Source of the DNA: Sideroxydans sp. CL21
Lineage (GTDB): Bacteria > Pseudomonadota > Gammaproteobacteria > Burkholderiales > Gallionellaceae
Direction: 5' to 3'
NCBI RefSeq assembly: GCF_902459525.1
Contig: NZ_LR699166.1
Location: forward strand, 3,608,501-3,672,500
DNA length: 64,000 nucleotides
The position numbers and the translations under genes are program-made. The stretch's first letter is position 1. The number at the start of each line of letters is the position of its first letter. This document shows positions 9,359 through 30,792 of the stretch, piece by piece. Under the pieces are notes generated by a model. That model had not been told where the DNA came from and did not search any database. It was given only the letters and a program-made list of their open reading frames with translations.

Positions 9359-9810
9359 ATGGAGCGGTTTGCTCTGTGCATAAGTAGATTGTATGACGCA
9401 AAGTGGTTCGACGCAATGCATGCGTCGTACCCACTGTGGTCGATAGTCACGCAGTATTCACAAACCATTATGACAGCTATTTTGCACAAAATTCTCGACA
9501 CCTCCGCTGTGCCCATTATCTCCCCACAACTCTAGTGCTGAGTCTGCTTTGGCGTATTGGGCGGAAGTAATTTTGGCTGGCCTAAAGCGTCTGCAATAGC
9601 CGATCATGTCGAGCGCTACACAACGCCGAACGGCAGAAGCCGCCCATCCTAGTGCATGCCAATCAACTGATGACCGCTACGAGGTATACTTTGCACTTCG
9701 CTACTTTGATTTTGTTAGTAGCGACTCATGAACGATTTATTTTGTAAAGAATAGATTACCAATCCACGCCCGTGCACTTGCAGGGCAACAAGAATGGCCA
9801 GGTAAAACCC
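9359..9810 (+). other. Intergenic region before hsdM with a small palindrome
   Basis: About 450 nt without a convincing gene between the divergent TIGR04255 cassette and hsdM, so promoters for both must lie here. The clearest structure is a 7-bp inverted repeat, CGCTACT at 9699-9705 and AGTAGCG at 9717-9723, about 90 nt upstream of hsdM. It could be an operator or a transcript hairpin. I see no strong sigma-70 pair and no RNA gene. Confidence 0.4.
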
Positions 9811-11349: not shown

Positions 11350-12563
11350 GTAGCGTTTCCTACGTTCAACTTGGTCAAGTTGCCAAGCTCAACCCCACAT
11401 TGAATTCTGTGGCATCTATATCGGCAGAAGAGCTTGTAGATTTTCTGCCCATGTCGGGAGTGGAAGCAGGGTGCTCAATCGCAACTCCAAATGAAGTGCG
11501 TCAGTTCAGCGATGTGCGGCAAGGTTACACCTACTTTTCCAGTGGGGATGTTCTTTTAGCGAAAATTACGCCCTGTTTTGAAAACGGGAAAATTGCACAA
11601 GCTCTCCTCAAGCGCAAATATGGCTTCGGCTCTACTGAATTCCATGTAATTCGGGCTGACCCCGAGCGGCTTAATGGTAGATACCTTGTTCACTTTCTGA
11701 GGCGCGACAAAATTCGACTTGATGGTGAACGCAAGATGACTGGTAGTGCAGGTCAGCGGCGAGTACCGAAGCACTTTCTTGAATCTCTCTCCATCCCACT
11801 TCTACCTCTCCCCGAACAAATCCGAATCGCTGCCATCCTTGACCATGCCGACGCACTACGGGCTAAGCGCAGGGAAGTTTTGGCACAACTGGATAGCCTC
11901 GCGCAGGCAATTTTTATTGATATGTTTGGTGACCCTGTTAGAGGAAATGGGCTTTATCCCTTAAGCAATATTGAAGAAATTGCTGCTCCTGAAAAATATT
12001 CCATAGTGGATGGACCATTTGGTTCAAGTATGAAACCAGATGACTACCGAGAGTTCGGTATACCCGTTATACGAATTGCGAATATCACTAAGGGAGGCGA
12101 GTTTTCCAAGAAAAATCTCCTGTATATAGATAAGTCGCTATTTGAAAAACTTAAACGCAGCAGTATTAAGCCGTTTGACGTTCTGGTGTCACGAGTTGGG
12201 ACAATTGGAAATACGTGCATATTTCCTGAGGGTATTGGCGACGCGTTGCTCTCCACCACAGGTGTCTGCAAGATAATGCCCGACAGTAAGCAAATGCTGC
12301 CGGAGTTTCTTCATCAGGCGATACAACAGCCAGCATTCCAAGAACAAATCAACAAGAGTGCATCGACCTCGGTTCAGAAATATTTCAACCTCTCGGCACT
12401 CAAAAGATGGAAGATTGTTAAACCACCACTTGAGGACCAACGAGCGTTCACACAGAAATTCTCACAAATTCAAATTCTTAAGCTTGCACATCAGCAATCA
12501 CTCGCTGAACTGGACAACCTGTTCGCCTCCCTCCAACACCGCGCTTTTCGTGGAGAACTCTGA
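11346..12563 (+). CDS. hsdS: Type I restriction-modification system specificity subunit
   Basis: 405 aa from a GTG overlapping the hsdM stop. The two-part layout of HsdS is clear: a first target-recognition domain (about 1-150), a central conserved helix PLLPLPEQIRIAAILDHADA with LRAKRREVLAQLDSL, a second recognition domain (about 200-350: VDGPFGSSMKPDDYREFGIP, VSRVGTIGNTC), then a distal conserved helix ending SLQHRAFRGEL. It sets the DNA sequence recognised by the complex. The target sequence cannot be predicted from the protein alone. The gene is intact, with no inverted repeats suggesting phase-variable shuffling. Confidence 0.95.
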   Translation: MSSVSYVQLGQVAKLNPTLNSVASISAEELVDFLPMSGVEAGCSIATPNEVRQFSDVRQGYTYFSSGDVLLAKITPCFENGKIAQALLKRKYGFGSTEFHVIRADPERLNGRYLVHFLRRDKIRLDGERKMTGSAGQRRVPKHFLESLSIPLLPLPEQIRIAAILDHADALRAKRREVLAQLDSLAQAIFIDMFGDPVRGNGLYPLSNIEEIAAPEKYSIVDGPFGSSMKPDDYREFGIPVIRIANITKGGEFSKKNLLYIDKSLFEKLKRSSIKPFDVLVSRVGTIGNTCIFPEGIGDALLSTTGVCKIMPDSKQMLPEFLHQAIQQPAFQEQINKSASTSVQKYFNLSALKRWKIVKPPLEDQRAFTQKFSQIQILKLAHQQSLAELDNLFASLQHRAFRGEL

Positions 12564-15500
12564 ATGAGCAACTTCGCCTTCCTTCAACCCGAGTGGCCGT
12601 TGCTGTTTGAGGCAGCAACCCAAGCAGAAGGAACGGCGAACACCGATGCCCGCGCATCCTGTTTTTATTCCCGCCGTGCGTTGGAACTGACCGTGGCGTG
12701 GCTCTACACCTACGACAAGACGCTCAAGCTGCCATACCAGGACCACCTGAGTGCGCTCATCCACGAGCCCACGTTCCGCAAGGCAACGGGCGAGGCAGTA
12801 TTCACCAAGACCAAGCTCATCAAAGACCTCGGCAATCTGGCGGTACACAGCACGCGCAAAATTTTGCCTGCCGATGCGCTGACGACGACACGTGAACTGC
12901 TCCATGTGTGCTACTGGCTGGCACGCACCTATGGCAAGAAGTCGCGTCCTGATCCCACGCTGGGTTTTTCGCCTGCCTTGCTGCCGCAGCCTTCCGCCGC
13001 ACCGGCGCAGTCGCTAGGCCAGTTGCAGAAGCTGGAAGCGCAACTGCACGAACGCGACGCAAAACTCACCACGTTGCTGGCCGACAAGACGGCACTGGAT
13101 GAAGAACTCAAAAAGCTGCGCGAGGAAATTGCTGCTTCCAAGAAAACCAACTCCGCACAACCCGACACTCACGATTATTCCGAAGCGCAAACCCGCGACT
13201 ACTTCATTGACCTGTTGCTGAAAGAAGCGGGCTGGCCGCTGGATAAGCCGCAAGACCGCGAGTTTGAAGTGAGCGGCATGCCCAGCGATTCCGGGATCGG
13301 CTTTGTCGATTATGTGCTGTGGGCGGATGACGGCAAACCGTTGGCAGTGATTGAAGCCAAGCGCACCAAGCGCGATGCCAAGGTGGGGCAGCAGCAGGCA
13401 AAGCTGTATGCCGATTGCCTGGAAGCCAAGTATGCACAGCGCCCGGTGATTTTCTACACCAATGGCTGTGAGCATTGGCTGTGGGACGATGCCAGCTACC
13501 CGCCGCGTGCGGTGCAAGGCTTTTTCAAAATGGCCGAGCTGGAGCTGATGATACAGCGCAGAACCACGCGCAAATCGCTGGCAGCCGCGCCGATCAACGA
13601 GGCCATCGTCGAGCGCTATTACCAGACTCGCGCGATCCGTCGCATCGGCGAAGCCATCGAAACCGACTATCAGCGCAAAGCCTTGGTGGTGATGGCGACC
13701 GGGGCGGGCAAGACGCGCACGGTGATTGCGCTGGCCGATGTGTTGATGCGCTGCAACTGGGCCAAGCGCGTGCTGTTTTTGGCCGACCGTGTGGCCTTGG
13801 TGCGGCAGGCGGTCAACGCCTTCAAGACACACTTGCCGGATTCTTCGCCGGTGAATCTTGTTACTGAAAAAGATACCGAGGGGCGTGTTTACCTCTCCAC
13901 TTATCCCACCATGATGGGGTTGATTGATGACGCGAAGGACGGCCAGCGCCGCTTTGGTGTGGGGCACTTCGACCTCATTGTGATCGACGAAGCACATCGC
14001 TCGGTGTATCAAAAATACCGTGCCATCTTCGAGTATTTCGACAGCTTGCTGGTGGGGCTGACTGCGACACCCAAGGACGAAATCGACCACAACACCTATG
14101 GCCTGTTCGACCTTGAAAGCGGCGTGCCGACCGATGCCTACTCGCTCGACGATGCGGTGTCCGATAAGTTTCTGGTTCCGCCCGAGGCGGTTTCCGTACC
14201 GCTCAAGTTTCAGCGCGAGGGCATCAAATTCGATCAGCTATCGGAAGATGAACAGGAACAGTGGGACGCACTGGAGTGGAACGAGGACGGCACTGCGCCC
14301 GATGAAGTGGGCGCCGAGGCGCTCAACAAGTGGCTGTTCAACGCCGACACCGTGGACAAGGTGCTGGCACATGTGATGACGCGCGGGCAGAAGGTGGCGG
14401 GCGGCGACCGGTTGGGCAAGACCATCATTTTCGCCAAGAACAACGACCACGCCGAATTTATCGCTGAGCGTTTTAATATCAACTATCCGCATTACAAAGG
14501 CGAGTTCGCGCGGGTCATCACTTTCAAGACCGAATACGCGCAGAGCCTGATCGATAATTTCTCCGCAAAAGACAAGATGCCGCATATCGCCATCTCGGTG
14601 GATATGCTCGACACCGGCATCGACGTGCCGGAAGTGTTGAACCTGGTGTTCTTCAAGGCGGTGCGCTCCAAGACCAAGTTCTGGCAGATGGTCGGGCGCG
14701 GCACGCGGTTGTGTCCAAATGTGTTTGGGCCGAATGAGGACAAGAAATTCTTTTACATCTTCGACTACTGCCAGAATCTGGAATATTTCGCCCAGAACCC
14801 GGATGTGACCGACGGTGCCGCCAGCGAAGCGCTAGGGACGCGCTTGTTCAAGGCGCGTTTGCAGTTGATCGGCGAGCTGGACAACCAGTTCACCGATGAG
14901 CAGGCAATGCGCCAGGTCGAAGATGCGTATGGCGATACCGGTGACGACAAGACACTGCGCCGCGAGTTGGCCGAGATGCTGCATACGCAGGTGGCGGCGA
15001 TGAACATCGACAATTTTGTGGTGCGGCCACAACGCAGGCTGGTGGAAAAATATGCCCAGACTGAGCCGTGGCAAAAGTTGGGCGTGGCGGAGTTTGGCGA
15101 ACTGGCGCAATACGTGTCGGGTCTGCCCACCGAGATGTCCGATGAAGACGAAGAGGCCAAGCGTTTTGATTTGCTGGTACTGCGCACGCAGCTTTCCATT
15201 TTGCAGGCCAATCCAGGCTTCGCCAGCCTGCGCGAAAAAATCGTCGCCATTGCCAGCGCGCTGGAAGATCAGCAGAGCATCCCGGCCATCAAGGCGCACA
15301 TCGTTTTGATTCAATCGATGATGGGTGAGGAATGGTGGGCGGATGTCACCGTCGCCATGCTGGAGACGGTACGCAAACGGCTGCGCACGTTGATCAAGCT
15401 TATCGAGAAAGGTAAGCGCATCGTCGTTTACACCGACTTTGAAGACGAACTGGGAGAAGGCACCACGATTGAGCTGCCGGAAATGGGTATCGGTATGAAC

Positions 15501-15965
15501 TTCGAGCGCTTCCGCGACAAGGCGCGCCAGTTCCTCAAGGCGCATGAAAGCCACCTGGCACTGCAACGTCTGCGCCGCAATCAGCCGCTCACACCTTCCG
15601 ACCTAGATGAGCTGGAGCGCATGCTGGTGGAAGCGGGCGGTACACAGGCAATCATTGAGCGCGCCAAGGAGCAAAGCCACGGGCTGGGCGTGTTCATCCG
15701 CTCGCTGGTGGGGCTGGACCATGAAACCGCGAAGCAGGCATTCAGCCAGTTCATCTCGGGAACTGCGGTAACGGCCAACCAGATTGAGTTCATCAACCTG
15801 GTCGTCGATTACCTGACCGAGAACGGCGTGATGGAACCGGACCGGCTGTATGAGTCGCCGTTTACCGATATCAATCCGTTGGGGCCGGAGGGGGTGTTTC
15901 CGTCGGCGAAGGTGGATTTGATGGTGCAGGTGTTGGCTGAGATTCGGAAGAGTGCGGTGGCGTAG
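12564..15965 (+). CDS. hsdR: Type I restriction enzyme endonuclease/translocase subunit (EcoEI-like)
   Basis: 1133 aa, with its ATG directly after the hsdS stop. Domains in order: an N-terminal DUF4145-like helical region (about 1-115), a coiled segment (about 145-195), an HSDR_N PD-(D/E)xK nuclease (VDYVLW near 247, AVIEAKRTKRD near 262), a superfamily 2 helicase with Walker A ATGAGKT (about 377) and DEAH (about 474), helicase motif VI (QMVGRGTRL) and an EcoEI_R_C-type end. It translocates and cuts unmodified DNA using ATP. The DUF4145 front end is a common variant of this subfamily. Operon hsdMSR is complete. Confidence 0.96.
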   Translation: MSNFAFLQPEWPLLFEAATQAEGTANTDARASCFYSRRALELTVAWLYTYDKTLKLPYQDHLSALIHEPTFRKATGEAVFTKTKLIKDLGNLAVHSTRKILPADALTTTRELLHVCYWLARTYGKKSRPDPTLGFSPALLPQPSAAPAQSLGQLQKLEAQLHERDAKLTTLLADKTALDEELKKLREEIAASKKTNSAQPDTHDYSEAQTRDYFIDLLLKEAGWPLDKPQDREFEVSGMPSDSGIGFVDYVLWADDGKPLAVIEAKRTKRDAKVGQQQAKLYADCLEAKYAQRPVIFYTNGCEHWLWDDASYPPRAVQGFFKMAELELMIQRRTTRKSLAAAPINEAIVERYYQTRAIRRIGEAIETDYQRKALVVMATGAGKTRTVIALADVLMRCNWAKRVLFLADRVALVRQAVNAFKTHLPDSSPVNLVTEKDTEGRVYLSTYPTMMGLIDDAKDGQRRFGVGHFDLIVIDEAHRSVYQKYRAIFEYFDSLLVGLTATPKDEIDHNTYGLFDLESGVPTDAYSLDDAVSDKFLVPPEAVSVPLKFQREGIKFDQLSEDEQEQWDALEWNEDGTAPDEVGAEALNKWLFNADTVDKVLAHVMTRGQKVAGGDRLGKTIIFAKNNDHAEFIAERFNINYPHYKGEFARVITFKTEYAQSLIDNFSAKDKMPHIAISVDMLDTGIDVPEVLNLVFFKAVRSKTKFWQMVGRGTRLCPNVFGPNEDKKFFYIFDYCQNLEYFAQNPDVTDGAASEALGTRLFKARLQLIGELDNQFTDEQAMRQVEDAYGDTGDDKTLRRELAEMLHTQVAAMNIDNFVVRPQRRLVEKYAQTEPWQKLGVAEFGELAQYVSGLPTEMSDEDEEAKRFDLLVLRTQLSILQANPGFASLREKIVAIASALEDQQSIPAIKAHIVLIQSMMGEEWWADVTVAMLETVRKRLRTLIKLIEKGKRIVVYTDFEDELGEGTTIELPEMGIGMNFERFRDKARQFLKAHESHLALQRLRRNQPLTPSDLDELERMLVEAGGTQAIIERAKEQSHGLGVFIRSLVGLDHETAKQAFSQFISGTAVTANQIEFINLVVDYLTENGVMEPDRLYESPFTDINPLGPEGVFPSAKVDLMVQVLAEIRKSAVA

Positions 15966-16786: not shown

Positions 16787-17300
16787 GGGTGTCCGGAATT
16801 TTGTGTAAACGGGTTTTCGATTAACTCGATGAAATCCGTTCTGCAAAGTGGATGGAGAAGCGGTTCAGCGCAGCTTTCCAGTCCCGGATTGGCATCGTCC
16901 ACTTCTTGCTGATGTTTCTCAGCGCCAGGTAAAACAGCTTGGTCACCGCCTCGTCGGTCGGGAATGAACTGCGAGTCTTGATGACTTTGCGCAGGCTCAT
17001 GTTAATCGATTCGATGGCGTTTGTCGTATAGATTACTTTTCGGATTTCAGGCGGGTAGTCGAAAAATGGGATGATCCGTGCCCAGTTTTTCCGCCAGCTT
17101 AGCCCGATTGATTGGTAATCCTTGTCCCATTTCTTCTCGAATTCAGTCAGCATTTGTTCGGCGAGTTCGACGGTCGACGCGGTGTAAATCAACTTCAGAT
17201 CGGCGGCAACTTCCTTCTGCACTTTCCATGGCACAAAGTTCAGGCTGTTGCGGACCATGTGTACGATGCACAGTTGCACCGCCGCTTTCGGATACGAGAG
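16787..17300 (-). mobile_element. IS256-family remnant (3' part with one terminal repeat)
   Basis: The left edge has an IS256-type terminal sequence, GGTGTCCGGAATTTTGTGTA, followed by the last 165 or so codons of an IS256-family transposase on the minus strand. Similarity stops around 17300, after which the DNA is the former downstream flank of the exonuclease operon. The other end and the N-terminal half of the transposase are missing, so the element is dead. Confidence 0.85.
16821..17300 (-). pseudogene. IS256-family transposase, C-terminal fragment
   Basis: Homology starts at YPKAAVQLCIVHMVRNSLNF and includes the catalytic-domain end with YTTNAIESINMSLRKVIKTR and ALRNISKKWTMPIRDWKAAL. This is the Transposase_mut fold with the final acidic residue in NAIESIN. 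About 240 N-terminal residues, including the first two catalytic acidic residues, are absent. The frame stays open upstream to 17435, but those codons come from flanking DNA and the IS21-like terminus and are not transposase. It is non-functional. Confidence 0.85.
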
Positions 17301-17526
17301 GCGATCTAGGTGGCGACACTTTCTCTCAAATCCTGGTTGAACACTATATTTCTTCTTACACACCGCGCCTGTGTCACTTTTCGGCATTAAGGCGCCACTG
17401 ATTTCCGCCGTAATGGCGCCACTTTGAAGTGCCAAATCAGGGGCTCAAACTGGGGGTAAAGAATGCGTGAAATGAGCTGTTTTTGCAATCGCATTTTCAC
17501 TCTGTTTTGCTGCTGGTGTAGCTGTT

Positions 17527-19939: not shown

Positions 19940-20064
19940 TGGCGCCTTAACGCCGGAAATCCTGTGGCGCCATTACGCCGGAAATAAAGTGGCGCCTTTA
20001 TGCCGACAATCTACTGGCTCCTTAATGCCGGAAATGAAATGGCTCCCTAACGCCGAAAGTTCAC
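19940..20064. repeat. Five tandem 25-bp terminal repeats of the IS21-like element
   Basis: Five consecutive 25-bp units begin at 19940, 19965, 19990, 20015 and 20040. The core is TGGCKCCNTWAYGCCGRMAA followed by a variable spacer. They are transposase-binding sites typical of IS21 ends. The two outermost units are more diverged (GGCTCC instead of GGCGCC). Confidence 0.85.
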
Positions 20065-20570
20065 AGCCTGATCGCAAACTTCCAAGCGTACCTCAGGCTT
20101 CTTGCATCTACCAATGCATGATGCCGCCTTGCGCGATATTCATTCCAATACTCAGTCAGGCCAGCGTCATATCGATTCTGGTGACGTTGAGTCCTGAAAT
20201 AGATCATCCCGCACTTGCGGCGTAGATTCACTGGCCAGCAACCATAGAAATTGAACATCTTAGCTACCCACGGCCAGTCGTATATAGGTGCGTCACTCCT
20301 TAGCACCACCTCATCGCCACCTAATGCTTCAATCCATTCCTTCAGGCGGATCACCGTCTGCTCCTCGGTCAGACGATACTTGCCTCCCTCCAATAGTGGC
20401 AGCACGATATCGATGACGAATGAAGAACACATGTTCGAGTTCCACGTATCGCTGAGCTCAGCGTAAAACTCGCGCCCGTCTTCAGCTACCAGACCAATGC
20501 TGATCAACGCCAGATAACCTTTCACGTCTAGTGTCGTGAACTCTGTATCAAAAAATACTCCGATTGCCAT
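20061..20570 (-). CDS. 3'-5' exoribonuclease, Rv2179c-like DEDDh family (copy 1)
   Basis: 169 aa with the DnaQ-like fold of the Rv2179c group: FFDTEFT near residue 6 (first Asp and Glu), VLRSDAPIYDWPWVAKMFNF in the middle (Asp) and RHHALVDARSLRYAWK at the end (His and Asp). The family trims RNA 3' ends using two metal ions. It is the last gene of the operon, one nt after the HAD phosphatase. The IS21-like insertion lies in its final codons. Joining the flanks across the element restores an end of RRGV instead of RL, matching the KRGGRNV tail of copy 2. The loss is only a few residues, so activity may survive. Confidence 0.85.
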   Translation of the reverse strand: MAIGVFFDTEFTTLDVKGYLALISIGLVAEDGREFYAELSDTWNSNMCSSFVIDIVLPLLEGGKYRLTEEQTVIRLKEWIEALGGDEVVLRSDAPIYDWPWVAKMFNFYGCWPVNLRRKCGMIYFRTQRHQNRYDAGLTEYWNEYRARRHHALVDARSLRYAWKFAIRL

Positions 20571-20571
20571 T

Positions 20572-21057
20572 TCAGTCTTCTTTCAGGCTTTCAAGCCATT
20601 TTGAGAGTTTTTCTTGTGGAGCCCTATCCCCCAAGCCTCCCCACTCGTCGGTATGCACGAGATGATGACGTTGCTCCTCCGGCCAACCAATGTCGTCATC
20701 GTCGACAGCGATCCAATCGCTGAGTCGATGTCGCTTCACGTAGGCATTAATCTCTTGATACCTGGACAAGCTGTTCCACCACTGCTTGTCCATTGCACTA
20801 TGCCAAGTCGAGCCAAATATTCGCGTCCGCAATGCGGCTGGAAGGTACCCCTTCGCTTTCACAAAGCTCAACGTCGGCACCCATGACGTCGACAGAACGA
20901 TCTTGACGCGAGGATGTGGGGCAAGAATCCCGGCCAGTTGTTCTGCATGCTCGAATAGATTGTGTCCGTCCGCATGCAGCACAATTCTTCTCTTGCTGTG
21001 CCTGTAAGCCTCGTTCGGGTGCAGAACACCGTCGAAATCAAGAAATAGAATTGTCAT
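20572..21057 (-). CDS. HAD-fold phosphatase of the Swiss-Army-Knife RNA repair type (copy 1)
   Basis: 161 aa from ATG 21057. HAD motif I is FLDFDGVLHP (nucleophile Asp in DFDG), motif II is VLSTSW, and an acidic motif IV cluster is WIAVDDDDIGW. The small cap-less form matches the HAD domain that occurs in SAK RNA-repair proteins. It probably removes a phosphate from nucleic acid ends or nucleotides, but the substrate is unproven. By eye it is about 60 percent identical to the second copy at 23901. It lies directly upstream of exonuclease copy 1 with a 1-nt gap. Confidence 0.8.
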   Translation of the reverse strand: MTILFLDFDGVLHPNEAYRHSKRRIVLHADGHNLFEHAEQLAGILAPHPRVKIVLSTSWVPTLSFVKAKGYLPAALRTRIFGSTWHSAMDKQWWNSLSRYQEINAYVKRHRLSDWIAVDDDDIGWPEEQRHHLVHTDEWGGLGDRAPQEKLSKWLESLKED

Positions 21058-21079
21058 ATTCAGGTTCCACATTCAATAA

Positions 21080-21225
21080 TCTCAGTGAGACACACTCTTT
21101 TCGAACGCCACGCCGGTTCGGACTTGCACCATGTCGGATCGCTATTTATCGGTAGAATTTGAGCCTGTAACCGAGCGAACTACTTTTTGCCGGTTGTCAG
21201 ACCAGCTGAGTGTGTCTCATTGAGA
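21080..21225. repeat. Long-range 18-bp inverted repeat inside the operon
   Basis: TCTCAGTGAGACACACTC at 21080-21097 pairs with GAGTGTGTCTCATTGAGA at 21208-21225 with one mismatch (a G-U pair in RNA). The arms enclose 110 nt in the 243-nt gap between the cysteine phosphatase and the HAD gene, which is the only long gap in this otherwise tight operon. The inside holds further short stems (for example CGAAC/GTTCG). It could be a structured RNA, a processing site or a small non-autonomous element. Confidence 0.7.
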
Positions 21226-21300
21226 CGACTGCTAAAGCAAAGGACCAGGCAACAACTTTCTGAGTCATGCGCATCTCAAAATCTTACTTACGCCCCCCCC

Positions 21301-21711
21301 TTACAAACTGGCTCTGCACAAGGTCTCGTAAACATGTTTGTTGTACAACATATAGTCCGCCGGAAAGTCGAGGCCGAACCTCTCGGCGATCCATTTAGAC
21401 ACTGCAGCGCTCCGGCTGATGCCGGCGTGACAGTGCACAACAATGCCGACCACTCCGGACTCGTTGCACTTATGCGCAAACTCGATGATCTGCTTCGCAT
21501 GGTCATGACCGAACAGGATGTACGGATCATCAGCTAATAATGCCTTTGGATCTGGATCGATATCGTCGAACTCCAGCCGCAACACCGACTGCCAACCTTC
21601 ACGTAGCCGAGCAGGATCAAGACCAGAGATCGAGATCACCGCCCAGCGCGGATTCACCGAGTTTTCGGCGTCTTTCCTGCTCATAAAGATCACCTGTTCC
21701 AGTGCCATCAT
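21301..21711 (-). CDS. Cysteine-dependent (dual-specificity type) phosphatase (copy 1)
   Basis: 136 aa with the P-loop HCHAGISRSAAVSKWIAERF (C-x5-R, Cys near 93) of the tyrosine/dual-specificity phosphatase superfamily and a general-acid candidate in LEFDDIDPD (about 48-53). The superfamily includes phosphoprotein phosphatases and RNA 5'-triphosphatases. The neighbours (exoribonuclease, SAK-type HAD, metallophosphoesterases) make a nucleic-acid substrate plausible, but that is inference. Copy 2 is at 22789. It is followed by a structured 243-nt gap. Confidence 0.8.
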   Translation of the reverse strand: MMALEQVIFMSRKDAENSVNPRWAVISISGLDPARLREGWQSVLRLEFDDIDPDPKALLADDPYILFGHDHAKQIIEFAHKCNESGVVGIVVHCHAGISRSAAVSKWIAERFGLDFPADYMLYNKHVYETLCRASL

Positions 21712-21721
21712 TCACCCCAAA

Positions 21722-22156
21722 TCAATAAAACACATGCAACACGCCGAAGAACTCGCCCAGGTTGATCGAGTGCAGGAAGTGGCACACATGCAATCGCAGA
21801 TCCAGGTCAGGCTCGCCATCGCCCTTTGTGCCGAGCTTGTACAAGCTGTTTCTGGTGACAACCAGACCTGCCTCCGGGCTGATTGCCACTACAGGCGACG
21901 TACGAAATACCCGACCATTCTTATAACCAAACATAATGTCAGCAATAAACAACTTGGACGGTATGTCCAATCTAACAACGTACCAACCCTCAATCATCCC
22001 TTTGACAGACATCTGGCGATCCATAGCAACATTCGGAATAAATGCGATATGAGCGTCATCCAGCACGCTAAGCGATGCATTTTCACGATGAAGAGTGATG
22101 ATGCTATCGATAGACTCCGGCACTGCTGTCTTGAAAGCTTTGGCAAGTCCGTTCAT
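21722..22156 (-). CDS. Hypothetical protein in the end-processing operon
   Basis: A 144-aa soluble protein that I do not recognise. A helical start (AVPESIDSIITLHRENASLS) is followed by a beta-rich body with WYVVRLDIPSKLFIADIMFG and a C-terminal LRLHVCHFLHSINLGEFFGV. It starts 3 nt after the metallophosphoesterase stop and ends 10 nt before the cysteine phosphatase, so it is part of the same transcript. It is the only gene of the operon body without a partner in the other half of the duplication. Confidence 0.7.
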   Translation of the reverse strand: MNGLAKAFKTAVPESIDSIITLHRENASLSVLDDAHIAFIPNVAMDRQMSVKGMIEGWYVVRLDIPSKLFIADIMFGYKNGRVFRTSPVVAISPEAGLVVTRNSLYKLGTKGDGEPDLDLRLHVCHFLHSINLGEFFGVLHVFY

Positions 22157-22159
22157 GTC

Positions 22160-22792
22160 CTATCCTTTCAACGATTCGAATTTGGCGACGATCTCGGCTT
22201 CTGAGACCGGCTTCAAACTCCACAGATCAACGCCGACATTGACCATCGGCGGCATGCCTCGATATTTGGCGTCTTGCCATTCAGAGTGAACGTGGCCGTG
22301 AATCAGTAAGCTCTCGCCTTTAGCTTTTGGTCGATGCTCCAGATACCGCTTCTCAAATTCCTGCAGATCTCCAAGATTCGGAGGCGCATAAGGAAAGTGA
22401 TTCAACCGAACAAGACCAATGCCTGGAACTGTCAGTTCGAGTTCTGCATGCAGATCGCTGAAGCCAACTTCAATAGCGATGGCGCGCGCCTCTTCTATCC
22501 TGCCGTTCACTGCACGTTTGAAGAACGGATCATGGTTGCCCACGATCAGAATCTTCCGGCCATTCAAAAATGGCAGGATCTCGCGCAAAAGCATCATCTT
22601 CATGCACATGTCACCAATACAAAAGACCTCGTCATTTTCCTTGACGACGCTGTTCCATTGATCAACAAGGAAATCGTCCATCAAGTCAACGTTCTTGAAC
22701 GTGCGACCGTGCTCATTCACCCGATTCTCGGCCTCATACTTCAAAATGTTGGCATGTCCAAAGTGCTGGTCACTCGTAAAAAATCTGCTCAT
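22160..22792 (-). CDS. Calcineurin-like metallophosphoesterase (copy 1)
   Basis: 210 aa with all core motifs: RFFTSDQHFGHANI (DxH, residues about 8-10), CIGDMC (GD), VGNHDPFF (GNHD) and LIHGHVHSEW (GHxH). This short form starting FTSDxHFGH is common in phages and accessory islands. Possible activities include 2',3'-cyclic phosphodiesterase or phosphatase on nucleotides or RNA ends, and the substrate is not defined by the sequence. It overlaps the preceding cysteine phosphatase gene by 4 nt. Confidence 0.88.
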   Translation of the reverse strand: MSRFFTSDQHFGHANILKYEAENRVNEHGRTFKNVDLMDDFLVDQWNSVVKENDEVFCIGDMCMKMMLLREILPFLNGRKILIVGNHDPFFKRAVNGRIEEARAIAIEVGFSDLHAELELTVPGIGLVRLNHFPYAPPNLGDLQEFEKRYLEHRPKAKGESLLIHGHVHSEWQDAKYRGMPPMVNVGVDLWSLKPVSEAEIVAKFESLKG

Positions 22793-23199
22793 ATCAACAA
22801 ACTCTCCTCCCGCAACAGCATGTACACGTGCTGATTGGCATATGCGTAATCTTTCGGAAATGACAACCTATACCGTTCCGAGATCCACTTCGCCACCGCA
22901 GCCGATCTGCTCACGCCGGCCCAACAGTGAACCAGGATGCCTTCGCATCGCTTGTCTTCATTCATCCGTTGCACAAACTCGATGACTGCGCGAGCCTGTA
23001 ATTCACCCATCCGAACGTAGCCATCGTGATTTATCTCAGAAATGTCGTCGAACTTTAGGCGCAGAACATCCTGCCAGCCATGTTGCAGGGGTGCGTCGGC
23101 AAAGTTTATGTCAGTGATGCTAATCACAGACCAATTGCTCCATGCCGCGCGCTCGCAGGCGCTTTGCTGAGATGTAAAAATTACGTGTTTGATAGTCAT
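22789..23199 (-). CDS. Cysteine-dependent (dual-specificity type) phosphatase (copy 2)
   Basis: 136 aa from ATG 23199. A GTG 6 nt earlier is also in frame, but 23199 overlaps the upstream small ORF stop as ATGA. The P-loop reads HCWAGVSRSAAVAKWISERY (C-x5-R), with LKFDDISE upstream as a possible acid loop. It is clearly homologous to copy 1 (shared VISIT/VISIS strand, GWQDVLRLKFDDI and KHVYETL/QHVYMLL end). It also overlaps the metallophosphoesterase start by 4 nt, so three genes are coupled in a row. Confidence 0.82.
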   Translation of the reverse strand: MTIKHVIFTSQQSACERAAWSNWSVISITDINFADAPLQHGWQDVLRLKFDDISEINHDGYVRMGELQARAVIEFVQRMNEDKRCEGILVHCWAGVSRSAAVAKWISERYRLSFPKDYAYANQHVYMLLREESLLI

Positions 23200-23282
23200 T
23201 CCCACCCCGTGGCAATAGGCCCCCTAGTTGCAGGCTTCAAATGCTTCTTTGCATCAATCAAATTCGTCACATCATCAAACAT
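23196..23282 (-). CDS. 28-aa coupled small ORF between exonuclease and phosphatase
   Basis: An ATG at 23282 overlaps the end of exonuclease copy 2 by 8 nt and is preceded by GAGGTGG. The stop overlaps the phosphatase start as ATGA. The peptide begins MFDDVTNLIDAKKHLKPATR and ends GWE. Coupling on both sides is what a genuine small gene or a translational bridge would show. I recognise no motif. It could simply be a relay that keeps ribosomes moving across the junction. Confidence 0.45.
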   Translation of the reverse strand: MFDDVTNLIDAKKHLKPATRGPIATGWE

Positions 23283-23829
23283 TCCGACCACCTCTCTTGA
23301 TCGCATACTTCCATGCAAAACGTAGACTGCGCGCATCCACCAAGGCATGATGTTGCTCGACTGCATACGCTTTCCAGTATTCATAAAGACCTGCGTTGAA
23401 CCGGTGCCACGCGTTCGGATTATCAAATCCGATCACTCCGCATTTTTGGCGCAGGTTCTTTGGCCAGCATCCGTAAAAATTAAACATGTCAGCAACCAAC
23501 GGCCAGTCATAGCCGGGAGCATCACTGCGCAACACAACCTCGCCCTTGCCCAAACTCTCAATAAACTCTTGTAGCTTTGATGCGCATTGAGCCTCAAGCA
23601 TGCTGGCTGAGTGATCTCCGCGTTTCCATTCCAGCAGCGGCAAGACGTTCGTAATCACGAAGTCAGAGCAGTCGACGACCTGGTACGTATCAGTCAGCTC
23701 CGCGTAGAACTCACGACCGTCATCGGACGCCAAGCCGATACTGATCAGCTTCGGCTCCTTCAGCGGATGCAGATCTGTGAACTCCGTATCAAAAAACACG
23801 TTGATTGATCTTTCCTTTTTCATCTTCAA
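23275..23829 (-). CDS. 3'-5' exoribonuclease, Rv2179c-like DEDDh family (copy 2)
   Basis: 184 aa with intact DEDDh residues: NVFFDTEFTDLH (Asp, Glu), VVLRSDAPGYDWPLVADMFN (Asp) and EQHHALVDARSLRFAWKYAI (His, Asp). The alignment with copy 1 is continuous, including FYGCWPKNLRQKCG. The complete C-terminus KRGGRNV shows what copy 1 lost to the IS21-like element. The expected activity is metal-dependent RNA 3' trimming. The ATG may be the third codon (MKKERS). Confidence 0.87.
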   Translation of the reverse strand: MKMKKERSINVFFDTEFTDLHPLKEPKLISIGLASDDGREFYAELTDTYQVVDCSDFVITNVLPLLEWKRGDHSASMLEAQCASKLQEFIESLGKGEVVLRSDAPGYDWPLVADMFNFYGCWPKNLRQKCGVIGFDNPNAWHRFNAGLYEYWKAYAVEQHHALVDARSLRFAWKYAIKRGGRNV

Positions 23830-23900
23830 TTCCCGACCGAGCTAACCCGATTCTTGTATGCTGATAATTTTGCTCCGCAGCGTGTTTCAAATCTCCCGGT

Positions 23901-24395
23901 TCACGCTGGCCAACCTGCTTTCAGGCTGTCAAGCCAGGCAGATAGCATCTGCTGAGCTTTTGTGTCCCCTAACCCGTTCCATTCGTTGGTATGAACAAGA
24001 TGACGGCGCTTATCAGCCGGCCAGCCGATATCGTCGTCTTCGACTGCGATCCAGTTCGTCAGCCGACGGCGTGCCACGTATGCATTGATCTGCTGATACC
24101 TGGTCATACTGTCCCAAGTCAGTTTGATTCGCGCACCTTGCCATGTCGTACCAACCAAACGCCTCTGCAAAGCGTCGGGAAGACATTCCTTGGCCGTTGC
24201 AAAGCCCAGCGTCGGCACCCACGACGTCGACAGAACGATCTCGACGCGAGGATAAGGATCAAGAATCCCGGCCAGCAGTTCTGCATGCTCGAAGAGATCG
24301 TGCCCGTCCGCATCCAGCACGATTCTTCCATTGCTGTGCCTGAAAGCTCCGTTCGGATGCAGGACGCCGTCGAAATCAAGAAATAGAATTGCCAT
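23901..24395 (-). CDS. HAD-fold phosphatase of the Swiss-Army-Knife RNA repair type (copy 2)
   Basis: 164 aa with FLDFDGVLHP (nucleophile), VLSTSWVPTLG (motif II) and WIAVEDDDIGWP (acidic motif). It has the same length and motif spacing as copy 1, with scattered substitutions over the whole protein, so the duplication is not recent. The order metallophosphoesterase, HAD, exonuclease, cysteine phosphatase reads continuously from 25160 to 22789. Confidence 0.8.
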   Translation of the reverse strand: MAILFLDFDGVLHPNGAFRHSNGRIVLDADGHDLFEHAELLAGILDPYPRVEIVLSTSWVPTLGFATAKECLPDALQRRLVGTTWQGARIKLTWDSMTRYQQINAYVARRRLTNWIAVEDDDIGWPADKRRHLVHTNEWNGLGDTKAQQMLSAWLDSLKAGWPA

Positions 24396-24407
24396 ATCCG
24401 GGTTTCC

Positions 24408-25160
24408 TCATATCTCCACAACGAGTGATGGGTTGAAGTCGAAGTTTTCTACGCCTCTACTAGTCACATACCCGCGAGGATTACAAATCACGCGAGTGCC
24501 ATTCACTTCATAGTCCAAGTTGTCGTGGGTATGGCCATGTAGCCAAAGAACGGCTTTGCCAAACAGATGATCCAACTCGGACGCAAAGCACGCCGAAAGC
24601 AGATTGTGCTTGAATCTTTCCACGACTGACCTGGCAGATGGCAGGTGATGCGTGACAACCACGGTCTCGCCGGCATACGCCTCGTCCAACTTTCCGGAGA
24701 GCCAAGCCAAGGACTTTTCGTGAAGCTCGATTGAACGCGCCGGACTGAAGTGTCCGAGCGCTCCCTCGTGAATCACGCGGAAGTCATTCAAGCCATTCTG
24801 ACCTGCCACCATCGCCGCTATCTTGGCTTTCTCGCCAAACAGGCGGAAATCCGTCCATAGCGTCGAGCCTAGAAAGCGAATGCCACCGATCACGACCTCA
24901 TCGTCATCCAGAAAATGGACGTCGCATTCCTTAGCCGCGATTCGCAGCAATGCCAACGTTTCTAGGCGCTGTGTGCCATAGAGCTCGTGATTTCCAGGGA
25001 CGTAGATGATCTCCTTGTCCGGGAATGCACCACGTGCCCATATGAGCCCGTTCGCGGCTTTTCCGATGTCGCCAGCCAGCACGACAACGTCCGCACCCGC
25101 AACGATTGGCTCGAACGTCGAGAACTCCAGATGCAGGTCACTCATGATTTGCAGTTTCAT
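24408..25160 (-). CDS. Calcineurin-like metallophosphoesterase (copy 2, longer type)
   Basis: 250 aa from ATG 25160. Motifs are MKLQIMSDLHLEF (DxH), VVLAGDIGKA (GD), YVPGNHELYG (GNH[DE]), VVTHHLPSARSVVERF and WLHGHTHDNLDYEV (GHxH). This subfamily is broader than copy 1, and the two are homologous mainly at the motifs. Substrates of close relatives are mostly unknown. The frame extends to 25178, where it overlaps the AAA+ gene by 4 nt, so both starts imply coupling with the ATPase upstream. Confidence 0.87.
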   Translation of the reverse strand: MKLQIMSDLHLEFSTFEPIVAGADVVVLAGDIGKAANGLIWARGAFPDKEIIYVPGNHELYGTQRLETLALLRIAAKECDVHFLDDDEVVIGGIRFLGSTLWTDFRLFGEKAKIAAMVAGQNGLNDFRVIHEGALGHFSPARSIELHEKSLAWLSGKLDEAYAGETVVVTHHLPSARSVVERFKHNLLSACFASELDHLFGKAVLWLHGHTHDNLDYEVNGTRVICNPRGYVTSRGVENFDFNPSLVVEI

Positions 25161-25174
25161 ATCTATATTCCTTA

Positions 25175-26443
25175 TCAATCAGCTTTCGCTTCAGTTCTGA
25201 TGAATCCGATCCCCCTCTGGATTGCCTTTTGTTCCGGTTTCTCGGGAACAGAGATCTTGCTGCCAGTGCGCAACGCCCTCGCAAATGCGCTACGTACCGC
25301 CATAATCAACGCCCGGATGTCGATGTCTGCCTCAGACAGTTCTCGAACTGCATAGCAATCCAAATCAATTCGCTTACTGCGAGCCTTACTTTTGAGCTCA
25401 ATATGCACGCGCTTGGCAATCGATATTCTCTGCTCAACCCCAGGCGCCTTGATCATGAACGTACGGCATCTAGACAGAAGTGCTGGATCCATATCATTCA
25501 TCTTGTTCGATGCCATCAGCACAATCAGACGCGATGCGTCGAAATGCATGCCGACACTCTCATCTCTGTATTTCCGGGCAGATTCAGGCTCTAACAAGTC
25601 CAGCAACGCTGGCAAGATTGCGTACTCCTGTCGATTAGACAGCTTGTCAGCCTCGTCGATCAGCAATACCCCGCTCGCCCATTGGCTATGCGAGATCAGG
25701 TTGAACACTTCACCTGCCTGCGCGTTGGCCCAATGCGATGCTGTTCCAGTCAGTATTGATGCATGCTGCATGCCTCCCGCACTCAGTTTGCAGAACGGCA
25801 GTCCAAGCATTGACGCGAACGTCTGCGCGAAGGCGGTTTTACCGACACCGGGATCTCCATCGAACAGAACCGGCGAAATACGGAAATACTCTGCCTTGCT
25901 TGCTCCGGCCAATGTCATTTCTTCTGCGAAATGATCGAGCACGGACCGAAAGTTGCCGAACTGCCCCTCCAGGCGCGTCAGTGTTCGCCCAATGTTTTTG
26001 AACGTAGGTAGCTTGCGATAGCCTTCATGCTCCTCTGCGATCTTTATCGTTGACTCAAACCGCCGCTTTGTATCGCCTGACGTCGCTTTTCCGACGTTTT
26101 TCACCCGTGCGATTTCACTGGGCTCGAAAACGCGCACGCAACGCTTGAACGGACGCAATGGTTTGCGCACGATCTTACTAACCGATTCTGCAGAAGCCAT
26201 GCCGGCGGACGTACCTTCATTGCTGGTGGCAATGGACGCTTTTCCGTTTTTGTCGCAATCAACCCTGTCTTTCTCATCGTCGATTTCGTCATCTTTTCCC
26301 AGCAGACTGGCCGGCACGAAGATTCTGGTTTCAAAGTTATGAACGAGGTCGTATTCGGACATCGTCTTATCAACCATAATTTCCCTCGCGGCCTTTCTCT
26401 GCTCAATGGCAAGAGCACGGGCATTCCGTTGTAAATTTTTCAC
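25175..26443 (-). CDS. Lon-like AAA+ ATPase lacking a protease domain
   Basis: About 422 aa from GTG 26443, chosen for an AAAGGA ribosome site 7 nt upstream. The frame stays open to 26512. A charged N-terminal region of about 190 aa precedes one AAA+ module: Walker A FDGDPGVGKTAFAQTF, Walker B GVLLIDEADKLSN, sensor 1 LIVLMASNKMNDMDPALLSR. The LLEPESARKYRDE segment resembles the Lon ATPase, but the Ser-Lys protease domain is absent. It probably powers remodelling of a protein or RNA-protein target for the enzymes encoded downstream. It is the first large gene of the operon. Confidence 0.85.
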   Translation of the reverse strand: MKNLQRNARALAIEQRKAAREIMVDKTMSEYDLVHNFETRIFVPASLLGKDDEIDDEKDRVDCDKNGKASIATSNEGTSAGMASAESVSKIVRKPLRPFKRCVRVFEPSEIARVKNVGKATSGDTKRRFESTIKIAEEHEGYRKLPTFKNIGRTLTRLEGQFGNFRSVLDHFAEEMTLAGASKAEYFRISPVLFDGDPGVGKTAFAQTFASMLGLPFCKLSAGGMQHASILTGTASHWANAQAGEVFNLISHSQWASGVLLIDEADKLSNRQEYAILPALLDLLEPESARKYRDESVGMHFDASRLIVLMASNKMNDMDPALLSRCRTFMIKAPGVEQRISIAKRVHIELKSKARSKRIDLDCYAVRELSEADIDIRALIMAVRSAFARALRTGSKISVPEKPEQKAIQRGIGFIRTEAKAD

Positions 26444-26489
26444 AGCAGTTTCCTTTGAAAAATATGAGGCACCGCTGCGATAAAGACGC

Positions 26490-26557
26490 GCGATGACGCT
26501 CATACAGGGCACAAGCCCTGTTCAATTTAATAAATTCGGTTAGCCCGGTGTGGGCTG
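26490..26557 (-). promoter_or_regulatory. Two hairpins between leader ORF and AAA+ gene
   Basis: On the minus strand AGCCC-ACACC-GGGCT follows the leader ORF. Then a perfect 7-bp stem ACAGGGC-TTGT-GCCCTGT lies shortly before the AAA+ start. Neither is followed by a U-run, so they look more like attenuator or RNA-processing structures than a strong terminator. Confidence 0.45.
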
Positions 26558-26558
26558 G

Positions 26559-26678
26559 TTAATCAGCCAAGTATCGTTTTGAGGTCGAATAACTTGGCAT
26601 AACGTCTGAAGTGGTTGTGACGCGATTCACCAGATTGGCATTTGCCTGGAGACGGTGGTTGGTATTTTGGTTTTTCAT
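26559..26678 (-). CDS. 39-aa leader ORF of the end-processing operon
   Basis: ATG 26678 is preceded by a strong AAAGGAG ribosome site at 7-8 nt and encodes MKNQNTNHRLQANANLVNRV followed by TTTSDVMPSYSTSKRYLAD and a stop. It is polar, Asn/Thr-rich, without a hydrophobic segment. It lies 120 nt before the AAA+ gene and downstream of a good promoter. It could be a regulatory leader peptide or a small functional protein. The strong translation signals argue that it is made. Confidence 0.6.
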   Translation of the reverse strand: MKNQNTNHRLQANANLVNRVTTTSDVMPSYSTSKRYLAD

Positions 26679-26796
26679 GACCTACTCCTTTCTTTCTCTG
26701 GTTAATCGCAGGTGACAATCGACTCAACTAGATCGCTCCGATGAGCCAATGTTTTTGCTGCATGCTTTATCTCAGGCATCGCTACCCGAGGATTGA

Positions 26797-26825
26797 ATAA
26801 TTCCCGAAACAATTGAGCTTGTCAA
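26797..26825 (-). promoter_or_regulatory. Sigma-70-type promoter of the end-processing operon
   Basis: On the minus strand, TTGACA (26825-26820, perfect -35) is followed after exactly 17 nt by AATTAT (26802-26797, four of six -10 matches). It lies about 120 nt before the leader ORF and about 70 nt inside the edge of the IS1111-type element, so the operon appears to keep its own promoter. Confidence 0.6.
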
Positions 26826-28313: not shown

Positions 28314-28508
28314 AAGATGACTTAAGGAATTATTATTGAATTACTTGACGGGTCAATACATATCAGAAGGTTAGTTGAGGGTAAGAAATAGCATGCCGGA
28401 TGTGCGCTGGTTGTCCCGACAAATGGTCCATGGGTAAACTGCCCTATTGCGCATCGACTAAATATAAACAACAATCCTCCTCTTCACCAATAACAAATGG
28501 ACTCTCAC

Positions 28509-28790
28509 ATGAACCGTCAAGAACTGATCGAAGCGCTCGCAACCAAGACAGGAAACACCAAGGCAGATGCTGATCGCTGCATTGCAGCTCTGCTTGAAAT
28601 CGTTACTGCCACACTGAAGAAAGGTGATAACGTTGCCTTGGTTGGCTTCGGCACCTTTGAAGTGCGCAAGCGCGCAGCTCGCGCTGGTCGTAATCCTGCA
28701 ACCGGAGAAGCTATCAAGATCAAAGCAGCGAAAGTACCCGCATTTAAGGCTGGTGCAACACTGAAGGCGGCTGTAAACGGCGGTAAGTGA
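28509..28790 (+). CDS. hup: HU-family histone-like DNA-binding protein
   Basis: 93 aa from ATG 28509, preferred over 28497 because MNRQELIEALATKTGNTKAD is the standard HU opening. The signature VGFGTFEVRKRAARAGRNPA with PATGEAIKIKAAKVPAFKAG gives the DNA-clamping beta arm and the intercalating proline. It bends and compacts DNA as a dimer in the nucleoid. It stands just right of the IS1111-type element with its own upstream region. Whether it is HU-alpha or HU-beta-like cannot be told. Confidence 0.93.
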   Translation: MNRQELIEALATKTGNTKADADRCIAALLEIVTATLKKGDNVALVGFGTFEVRKRAARAGRNPATGEAIKIKAAKVPAFKAGATLKAAVNGGK

Positions 28791-29570: not shown

Positions 29571-30792
29571 GATTCAACCGGTCGATGCAACACATTGGTT
29601 AAACCGTTCAGCCGGTGTTTCGAATTTTAACGTCTTTCGTGGACGTTCATTTAGTCTACGAGCCACCGCATTGAGTTGCGCCTGAGAGTGTGCCGACAAG
29701 TCTGTTCCTTTAGGGAAGTACTGTCTCAGTAATCCATTGGTATTCTCATTCGTTCCGCGTTGCCAAGGATTCTGAGGATCACAGAAATAGACTTTGATGT
29801 CGGTTGCCAACGTGAATCGCTTGTGATCGGCTAACTCACTGCCTCGATCCCAGGTCAGCGATTTATAGAGTTCCTGCGGTAACTTATGAGCATGTTTAAT
29901 CAGCGCATTGATGACAGTCTCGGTATCCTTACTGGGGAGTTTAACTAGCATTACATATCGTGTCTGGCGTTCAACGAGGGTTGCAATCTGACTGTTATCG
30001 CTGCCGCATAGCAGATCCCCTTCCCAGTGACCTGGTACTGCGCGGTCTTCTGCCGTGGCAGGACGTTCACTAATCGATACGGCATCTGTGATCCTGCCGT
30101 GATCGCCCGTCTTCAAAGTATGATGACGTGAACGACGCATGACTCGCGTACGCCGCAAATGATCCAGAAGCTCCTTCTTCAATGCGCCTCTAGCCTGGAT
30201 ATAGAGACTGCGATAGATGGTCTCGTGTGACACTTGGTAACTTTCATCGCTTGGGTAAGTCTGCTTCAGCCATCCGGCAATCTGTTCCGGTGACCACTGC
30301 CATTTGAGCTTATCGGCTACGATGTGTGCCAATGCTCGGTTCTCGACTAGTTTACAAGGTTTGGGACGATGCGCCCGATCCCACGCCGCCTGTTCAGCCT
30401 GACTCGCACGATAGTCCTCTTGGCCTCCATTGCGCTTGAGTTCGCGACTGATGGTCGATGGCGCCCGCCCGAGGGATGCTGCAATCGAGCGAGCTGATTG
30501 ACCTGCAGTTACCGCACGAGATATCTCTTCACGCTCAGCTAGAGTCAGTGACAATTGAGAACGTTTCCGTTGTACGGGTCGTATTCCTCCTGTCTCTGCC
30601 AAAATACGTTGTATTGAAGGATGATGTCTATCGAACAACTGGGCAATTTGATGAAGCGTGTCGCCTTTCTTCCAGCGTTCCCACATCAATGCTTTTTGAC
30701 TTTCAGTATAATAAATCCGAGTTCTCCGCTTCATATTCAACACTCCTTCTGCTTACGCAGATTTTAGAGTGTTGCGTCGACCGGTTGAAATC
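29571..30792 (-). mobile_element. IS30-family element, copy 1
   Basis: 1222 bp with terminal inverted repeats GATTCAACCGGTCGATGCAA at the left and the matching TTGCGTCGACCGGTTGAAAT at the right. One transposase gene fills it. The encoded protein is identical to that of copy 2 at 53188, so one of the two arose recently. It is inserted next to CTGC on the left and GCAA on the right. Confidence 0.93.
29574..30743 (-). CDS. IS30-family transposase (copy 1)
   Basis: 389 aa. The N-terminal helix-turn-helix part reads LMWERWKKGDTLHQIAQLFD and EREEISRAVTAGQSARSIAA. The DDE domain follows with GHWEGDLLCG (first Asp), KSLTWDRGSELADH (second Asp) and NPWQRGTNENTNGLLRQYFP (Glu). Length and motifs are complete. 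It cuts and joins element ends and prefers palindromic targets. The identical product of copy 2 shows recent transposition or strong selection. Confidence 0.96.
   Translation of the reverse strand: MLNMKRRTRIYYTESQKALMWERWKKGDTLHQIAQLFDRHHPSIQRILAETGGIRPVQRKRSQLSLTLAEREEISRAVTAGQSARSIAASLGRAPSTISRELKRNGGQEDYRASQAEQAAWDRAHRPKPCKLVENRALAHIVADKLKWQWSPEQIAGWLKQTYPSDESYQVSHETIYRSLYIQARGALKKELLDHLRRTRVMRRSRHHTLKTGDHGRITDAVSISERPATAEDRAVPGHWEGDLLCGSDNSQIATLVERQTRYVMLVKLPSKDTETVINALIKHAHKLPQELYKSLTWDRGSELADHKRFTLATDIKVYFCDPQNPWQRGTNENTNGLLRQYFPKGTDLSAHSQAQLNAVARRLNERPRKTLKFETPAERFNQCVASTG

Follow-up and report, generated by a model that had tools for sequence, protein, structure and literature searches.

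An operon of predicted end-processing enzymes headed by a Lon-like AAA+ ATPase in Sideroxydans sp. CL21 recurs as variable gene arrays in other genomes

A 64,000-nucleotide stretch of the Sideroxydans sp. CL21 chromosome (contig NZ_LR699166.1, positions 3,608,501 to 3,672,500; hereafter the window) carries on its minus strand, between positions 20061 and 26512, ten protein genes in the order AAA-MPE1-HAD1-EXO1-DSP1-MPE2-UNK-DSP2-HAD2-EXO2. They comprise a Lon-like AAA+ ATPase without a protease domain (AAA), metallophosphoesterases (MPE), HAD_SAK_2 phosphatases (HAD), DEDDh 3'-5' exonucleases (EXO), cysteine phosphatases (DSP) and one protein of unknown fold (UNK). We are nearly certain that these classes form a linked module, and the operon is more than a chance assembly because the set recurs in other genomes and because purifying selection is seen between its two copies in this genome. 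With somewhat less than even confidence, we read the operon as one of a family of arrays, mobile and in many cases headed by AAA, that would clear rather than reseal the ends of RNA or oligonucleotides. An initial annotation of this DNA had named the same genes, order and strand, which open reading frames (ORFs) and family scans confirmed, and had proposed a module for RNA repair, RNA decay or defence against RNA damage. That interpretation is borne out in part: the module is linked and defence or mobility genes lie near several arrays, but RNA repair in the usual sense is not supported.

Results

The enzyme classes are linked in other genomes

The initial annotation had proposed that conserved linkage would mark a system, and linkage was measured from two anchors. 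For EXO, a species-level genome collection was searched with the class profile and the best 80 of 119 confirmed relatives were taken as 80 named loci. For HAD, the family PF18143 was present in 53 of 399 genomes sampled from the organism's order, and 60 stretches were fetched around a subset of the matches, 59 of which had a HAD match. The class profiles started from the window proteins, or from a Rhodoferax plasmid in the case of MPE3 (a third metallophosphoesterase subfamily, found in other arrays and not in the window), and were iterated on the fetched loci. Within 3.5 kb of EXO we found 69 genes of other classes, 67 of them on the same strand, versus 5 at 5.5-9 kb (531,611 and 436,755 bases examined, respectively). 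The HAD anchor agrees, with 37 near genes (36 on the same strand) versus 2 in the far band (391,973 and 248,960 bases). Summed over both anchors, 103 of 106 near partners lie on the anchor's strand, in sets that overlap in at least five loci and with weak AAA matches left in the count. Chance neighbourhood was rejected as the cause because linkage decays with distance and because of this strand bias.

Other searches gave less. The DSP profile matched 4 of 398 genomes of the phylum, the three matches besides the window's being weak and having no other class in the fetched stretch. The AAA profile matched 387 of the 399 genomes of the order, largely in frames of Lon length, and is informative only at its top. 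AAA yielded nothing in viral contigs as a single-protein query, which reaches close relatives alone, and the whole operon searched as DNA had no match in a plasmid collection. HAD_SAK_2 relatives were present on 589 of the 72,556 records of that collection, 535 of them named Klebsiella, all being less than 60% identical to the window protein.

Arrays vary in content and AAA is usually first

We compared gene content in 159 loci, from which viral loci and five recognised duplicates had been removed and AAA matches weaker than 1e-40 dropped; the loci were preselected for EXO, HAD, AAA or DSP, so that counts are not natural frequencies, and a few genes were counted as fragments. These loci hold 46 clusters of two or more classes, 26 of which contain at least three genes. 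AAA occurs in 18 of the 46 clusters and heads 16 of these, where random placing would give about 5 (the sum of 1/n). Gene order is otherwise fluid, HAD-EXO-EXO being the only order that recurs among the 26 larger clusters (twice, in L075 and L150). Examples are AAA-EXO-EXO-EXO-DSP-EXO-HAD-MPE2-HAD-MPE1-MPE3-HAD in Ca. Ferrigenium altingense, with the maximum of four EXO genes per array, and MPE1-MPE3-HAD-DSP-UNK-HAD-EXO-EXO in a Moraxellaceae metagenome-assembled genome (MAG).

Further recurrent families were a second kind of DEDDh exonuclease (PF00929), a HAD-IA hydrolase (HADIA) and ZNR, a small Cys-rich protein with 14 matches (12 once a duplicate locus is set aside), of which two are fusions with HAD. 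One array, L093, also has a Pol-beta-like nucleotidyltransferase (5.2e-5, under the curated cut-off). The array enzymes are thus drawn from about ten families: HAD_SAK, three MPE subfamilies, two DEDDh kinds, DSP, HAD-IA, the Cys-rich protein and one unknown.

Several related arrangements were seen beside the arrays. Six Herbaspirillum loci (L187, L191, L195, L199, L162 and L163) have EXO adjoining an exonuclease of the PF00929 kind and no other array gene, save HAD in L162. On two Polaromonas glacier plasmids (L013, 6710-9637; L014, 9581-12656) AAA is fused to, or stands before, transposase genes of the IS3 type, and no enzyme class was seen there. A second AAA group, with frames of about 320-480 residues, occurs in many genomes of the order (e.g., G038:C7, G177:C1 and G318:C1) and has a recurrent single in-frame stop (TAG, TGA or TAA) inside the profile match, which may reflect overlap with the next gene, or something odder.

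Predicted activities of the operon proteins

The catalytic motifs of the enzymes are, as far as alignments with relatives tell, intact. AAA (25175-26512) matches Pfam AAA at 2.5e-17 and the NCBIfam lon model at 7.4e-24 (84 bits, cut-off 608) through the ATPase part alone, residues 215-371, and its ATPase motif residues are invariant in relatives. It shares the AAA+ core of Lon protease and Lon-like AAA+ proteins, but no protease family is among its Pfam matches, so that the C-terminal serine-lysine protease domain of Lon is missing, and it differs further in its N-terminal region and in leading an enzyme array. Its PADLOC matches are distant (IetA, 3.7e-7; TRIP13, 3.5e-7). No operon protein had a strong match to a known anti-phage system in PADLOC-DB 2.0.0, the strongest being that of MPE1 to the candidate PDC-S10 (2.7e-11).

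The metal-site motifs of the metallophosphoesterases are invariant in 13 MPE1, 7 MPE2 and 9 MPE3 rows. MPE1 (24408-25178), which is calcineurin-like, weakly matches a 3',5'-cAMP phosphodiesterase model (1.2e-8, 34.8 bits, cut-off 225), and MPE2 (22160-22792) resembles aq_1665 among the solved structures, its best match being 1xm7. HAD1 (23901-24395) and HAD2 (20572-21072) score 93.1 and 102.2 bits against PF18143 (cut-off 27.5) and are both HAD_SAK_2 members, with the DxD, Ser and DD motif positions invariant or nearly so across 16 aligned rows; HAD had no match among solved structures. Iyer et al. (2021; PMC7824862, section 21) predict that HAD_SAK phosphatases remove 3' phosphates from RNA, as a rule alongside ligases.

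The predicted exonucleases are the best-placed clue to array function. EXO1 (23275-23829) scores 19.4 bits against PF16473, under the cut-off of 27, and EXO2 (20061-20570) scores 27.6 bits, just over it. The EXO profile aligns over nearly the whole domain with the solved structure of RNase AS (Rv2179c; 4oke/4hec/6s0m) at 2.7e-18, with the catalytic D, E, D, H and D residues in register, and 13 aligned EXO rows all keep the DEDDh residues. EXO differs from RNase AS in scoring far under the equivalog model NF033638 (40.3 and 43.5 bits for the window proteins, cut-off 200) and in sitting in multi-enzyme arrays.

DSP1 (22789-23205), whose paralogue is DSP2 (21301-21711), has an HCxAGxSRS motif that is common to five DSP rows. 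Against solved structures the DSP profile matched 32 chains through the C-terminal half with the CX5R motif. Nearly all of these are named protein phosphatases and none RNA triphosphatase, and removal of 5'-triphosphates by the cysteine phosphatases finds no support here. One of the chains is viral PTP-2 (2.5e-4), and viral PTPs include RNA phosphatases. UNK (21722-22156), a protein of 144 residues, had no Pfam match and no significant match to a solved structure (best E value 0.68), and homologues are present in other loci.

Packing of the operon

The genes are tightly packed, but the claim of the initial annotation that starts and stops overlap through much of the operon is too strong. Outright overlaps occur at three junctions only, two of which involve a putative 28-codon ORF (23196-23282, minus strand, within a longer frame of 23196-23426) that overlaps EXO1 at its end and DSP1 at its start; the third is DSP1/MPE2. 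AAA/MPE1 would be a fourth if a TTG codon is taken as the MPE1 start. Five of the remaining gaps are of 14 nucleotides or less and two are larger, 77 and 228 nucleotides. A single transcription unit is inferred; promoter-like sites are in no excess over shuffled sequence (5 found versus 7.0 expected). A putative 39-codon leader ORF lies upstream of AAA (26559-26678, minus strand).

The 228-nucleotide gap between DSP2 and HAD2 (21073-21300) contains a perfect 12-bp inverted repeat, TGAGACACACTC, at 21086-21097 and 21208-21219. These are its only two matches in the window with one mismatch or fewer, versus 0.23 expected, and the repeat is possibly the remnant of a small mobile element. An RNA element in this gap had no support: Rfam gave no match at E ≤ 5, the fold z score was -0.9 and no tRNA was found.

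A second genomic copy and the origin of the duplicated genes

The initial annotation had described four enzyme classes present twice as diverged paralogues. This holds for the HAD, EXO and DSP pairs, which are 68%, 60% and 49% identical, respectively, but not for MPE1 and MPE2, which showed no significant similarity upon direct comparison (E = 0.21) and are best taken as two subfamilies rather than a recognisable duplication. The 3.77-Mb chromosome has three HAD_SAK_2 and three EXO matches. They are confined to two places, and the AAA genes there, one per place, are 96% identical to one another. The second copy (L004) has the order AAA-MPE1-DSP-MPE2-UNK-DSP-HAD-EXO and is collinear with the window copy at 93-95% identity, save that L004 lacks the HAD1-EXO1 block (about 24405-23216) between its MPE1 and DSP genes. 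Simple tandem duplication of one half-operon was rejected, since L004 differs by the HAD1-EXO1 pair alone and no similarity is detectable between MPE1 and MPE2.

Divergence between the copies is patchy. At synonymous sites the distance is 0 in MPE2, 0.06-0.16 in UNK, AAA, DSP1 and EXO2, 0.33-0.40 in MPE1 and DSP2, and 0.89 in HAD2. HAD of L004 is nearer to window HAD1 (0.15) than to HAD2, and we read the whole pattern as gene-by-gene recombination between arrays. The ratio of nonsynonymous to synonymous divergence (dN/dS) is 0.12-0.32 in the seven genes comparable between the copies, which are under purifying selection; MPE2 is identical.

Outside the genes, the copies share 79 bp (98.7% identical) past their downstream ends (window 17293-17371, L004 9775-9853), perhaps the end of an insertion element present at both sites. 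Upstream they share 275 bp (96% identical) running into an HU-like gene (window 28355-28629, L004 15481-15754), and in the window a 1.1-kb ORF that is IS110 transposase-like by eye lies between this stretch and the operon.

Defence and mobility genes near the arrays

Complete type I restriction-modification genes, hsdM, hsdS and hsdR, lie on the plus strand of the window (9772-15965), 4 kb from the operon, with elements between that by eye resemble insertion sequences. Of ten neighbours picked by eye, nine had a match; they included genes of type III restriction ahead of an AAA-EXO-UNK-HAD array, candidate defence genes and, close to two AAA genes without enzymes, genes of type I restriction. 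Also among them, in a Rhodocyclaceae MAG (L138, 4755-10939), is an Avs2 defence gene (2923.6 bits) that comes after EXO-MPE1.

Arrays are carried on plasmids of Rhodoferax, Comamonas, Chitinibacter and Variovorax. The Rhodoferax antarcticus plasmid has AAA-HAD-EXO-MPE3 with a relaxase gene about 1.3 kb off; the small Comamonas and Chitinibacter plasmids have HADIA-(ZNR)-HAD-exonuclease followed directly by a RelB/YafQ toxin-antitoxin pair; and on the Variovorax plasmid MPE1 and MPE3-HAD occur close to a HipA-domain gene. Of 110 proteins from array flanks, five had LPD7, four integrase and three relaxase Pfam domains, none of which is among the 25 listed of 186 Pfam families in control stretches placed arbitrarily (19 of 20 from genomes in which an array or HAD locus was also analysed). 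We consider a setting of mobility and conflict likely for the arrays.

The window also contains repeated ORFs of equal length, three of 389 amino acids (29574-30743, 53191-54360 and 59537-60706) and two of 800 amino acids (32651-35053 and 55284-57686, the first TonB-receptor-like). Insertion elements in several copies and the duplication of one stretch are the probable source.

Discussion

The reading that we tentatively prefer is that these arrays clear RNA or oligonucleotide ends. The substrates would be the ends of RNA fragments, or of signal oligonucleotides, that arise in conflict with phages, toxins or rival elements, and the enzymes would act on them in turn. The phosphoesterases may open cyclic ends and strip terminal phosphates, whereupon the exonucleases could degrade the freed 3' ends to mononucleotides, the net effect being clearing and not resealing. 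The AAA protein, a Lon-type ring without protease that is the usual lead gene where present, ahead of a changing set of small hydrolases, might remodel or extract the RNA-protein complexes that hold the substrate. It is possible, if doubtful, that this Lon-derived ring is a common platform for interchangeable hydrolases of RNA or oligonucleotide ends, the cassettes being reshuffled and duplicated to match the lesions or signals of rivals and serving to destroy the substrates.

Several observations weigh against clearing in a conflict setting. The families also live singly: the independent occurrence that the initial annotation had set against a system was seen at 46 of 80 EXO loci and 42 of 59 HAD loci, which have no other class within 3.5 kb, although where the classes occur together they are tightly packed. 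Several AAA relatives, too, lack any of the enzymes as neighbours. Viral contigs have many EXO relatives (298), and among the best 80 of these none is linked to another class. The DSP family is most like protein phosphatases, and the weak match of MPE1 to a cyclic-AMP phosphodiesterase model suggests that some members may act on small nucleotides. The evidence from flanking genes is a lean and not a measured enrichment, the comparison being coarse and counting families rather than proteins: 110 proteins drawn at random from the 126 that flank 27 array loci gave matches to 110 PADLOC families (E ≤ 1e-15), and the control matched too, with 62 families (108 proteins from the 20 stretches). Among the 25 listed of the 110 families, models for restriction, reverse transcriptase, DISARM (DrmMI) and candidate systems come first, and the 25 listed of the 62 are mostly kinase, regulator and helicase models with few defence names. 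Finally, clearing is argued from sequence and gene context, and the enzyme activities are all predicted.

The same chemistry could serve counter-signalling, in which phosphoesterases and exonucleases destroy cyclic or linear nucleotide messengers of host immunity, such as those of CBASS, type III CRISPR or Pycsar, so that a plasmid or phage-like element survives in a defended host. The variety of array enzymes would then mirror the variety of signals, plasmid and relaxase contexts would be expected, the cyclic-AMP model match of MPE1 would be explained, and passages of PMC7824862 predict this very role for calcineurin-like phosphodiesterases in jumbo phages. We nevertheless think it unlikely, as some arrays, the window's included, are chromosomal and near cellular defence genes, there is no apparent need for an AAA ring, and EXO stands apart from the other classes in the 80 viral loci.

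Healing of cleaved tRNA or mRNA ends for sealing by a host ligase, the repair function first proposed, would suit the HAD_SAK family, which is named after RNA repair proteins (Pfam description; passages of PMC7824862), and the nucleotidyltransferase of array L093. The ligase itself is the difficulty. Neither RtcB (PF01139) nor RNA_ligase PF09414 was found in the window's genome, in searches of these families among ligases in which the controls matched in 9 and 6 of 14 (PF09511 matched nowhere and is uninformative). Among 11 genomes with arrays or AAA-enzyme pairs, RtcB is present in five, as repair would have it, PF09414 in none, and six lack both. Scans of the ten operon proteins, and of ten others that are a part of the array genes elsewhere, gave no ligase (over cut-off) or 5' kinase family. 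Clearing is favoured over repair because neither of the two ligases was found and because a number of arrays have two to four 3'-5' exonucleases, which would destroy ends and not mend them. Ligase-based RNA repair is not supported, and we give repair little credence.

Plasmids and islands might also simply gather useful small hydrolases at common insertion points, so that the genes share a place and no pathway. Such accretion would account for the strong variation in order and content and for the HAD, EXO and AAA genes found alone, but it sits poorly with the sharp fall of linkage with distance, the shared strand of near partners, AAA in first place and the ZNR-HAD fusions, and we judge it improbable. 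A network of protein or metabolite phosphatases signalling through phosphoproteins, sugar phosphates or the like is suggested by the solved DSP relatives and by the HAD-IA hydrolase of some arrays. It is very improbable, since the ten operon proteins include no protein kinase family and the exonucleases do not fit. RNA decay or clearing, or else anti-damage or counter-signal defence, may be what the arrays do.

How do the arrays compare with known systems? Burroughs and Aravind reportedly described in 2016 modular RNA repair systems with SAK HAD phosphatases, with a syntax of ligase, end-processing enzymes and nucleotidyltransferase. Of that syntax the operon has HAD_SAK_2 and metallophosphoesterase families, whose action on RNA ends is predicted only. 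Both also mix phosphatases, phosphoesterases and end-processing enzymes, and the repair systems are likewise mobile and conflict-linked according to passages of Iyer et al. (2021; PMC7824862); the window operon differs in having no ligase, kinase or methylase and in its AAA lead, RNase AS-like exonucleases and duplicated members. A second comparison concerns the AAA gene. RADAR and IetAS are AAA-plus-effector defence systems in which an AAA+ protein is paired with an enzyme. The array AAA differs from these in being distant from the PADLOC IetA and TRIP13 models and in having many interchangeable partners. The view that no described system has this set stands insofar as no description of such arrays was found in the literature searched, which is a part of the whole, but section 21 of PMC7824862 had earlier predicted RNA-end phosphatase activity for the HAD family itself.

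If the preferred reading of clearing is correct, the arrays would add to bacterial conflict biology a mobile, strongly modular system built on RNA or oligonucleotide ends and an ATPase ring. They would also give a likely setting for genes of the HAD_SAK, RNase AS-like and orphan phosphoesterase kinds, which on plasmids are annotated one by one.

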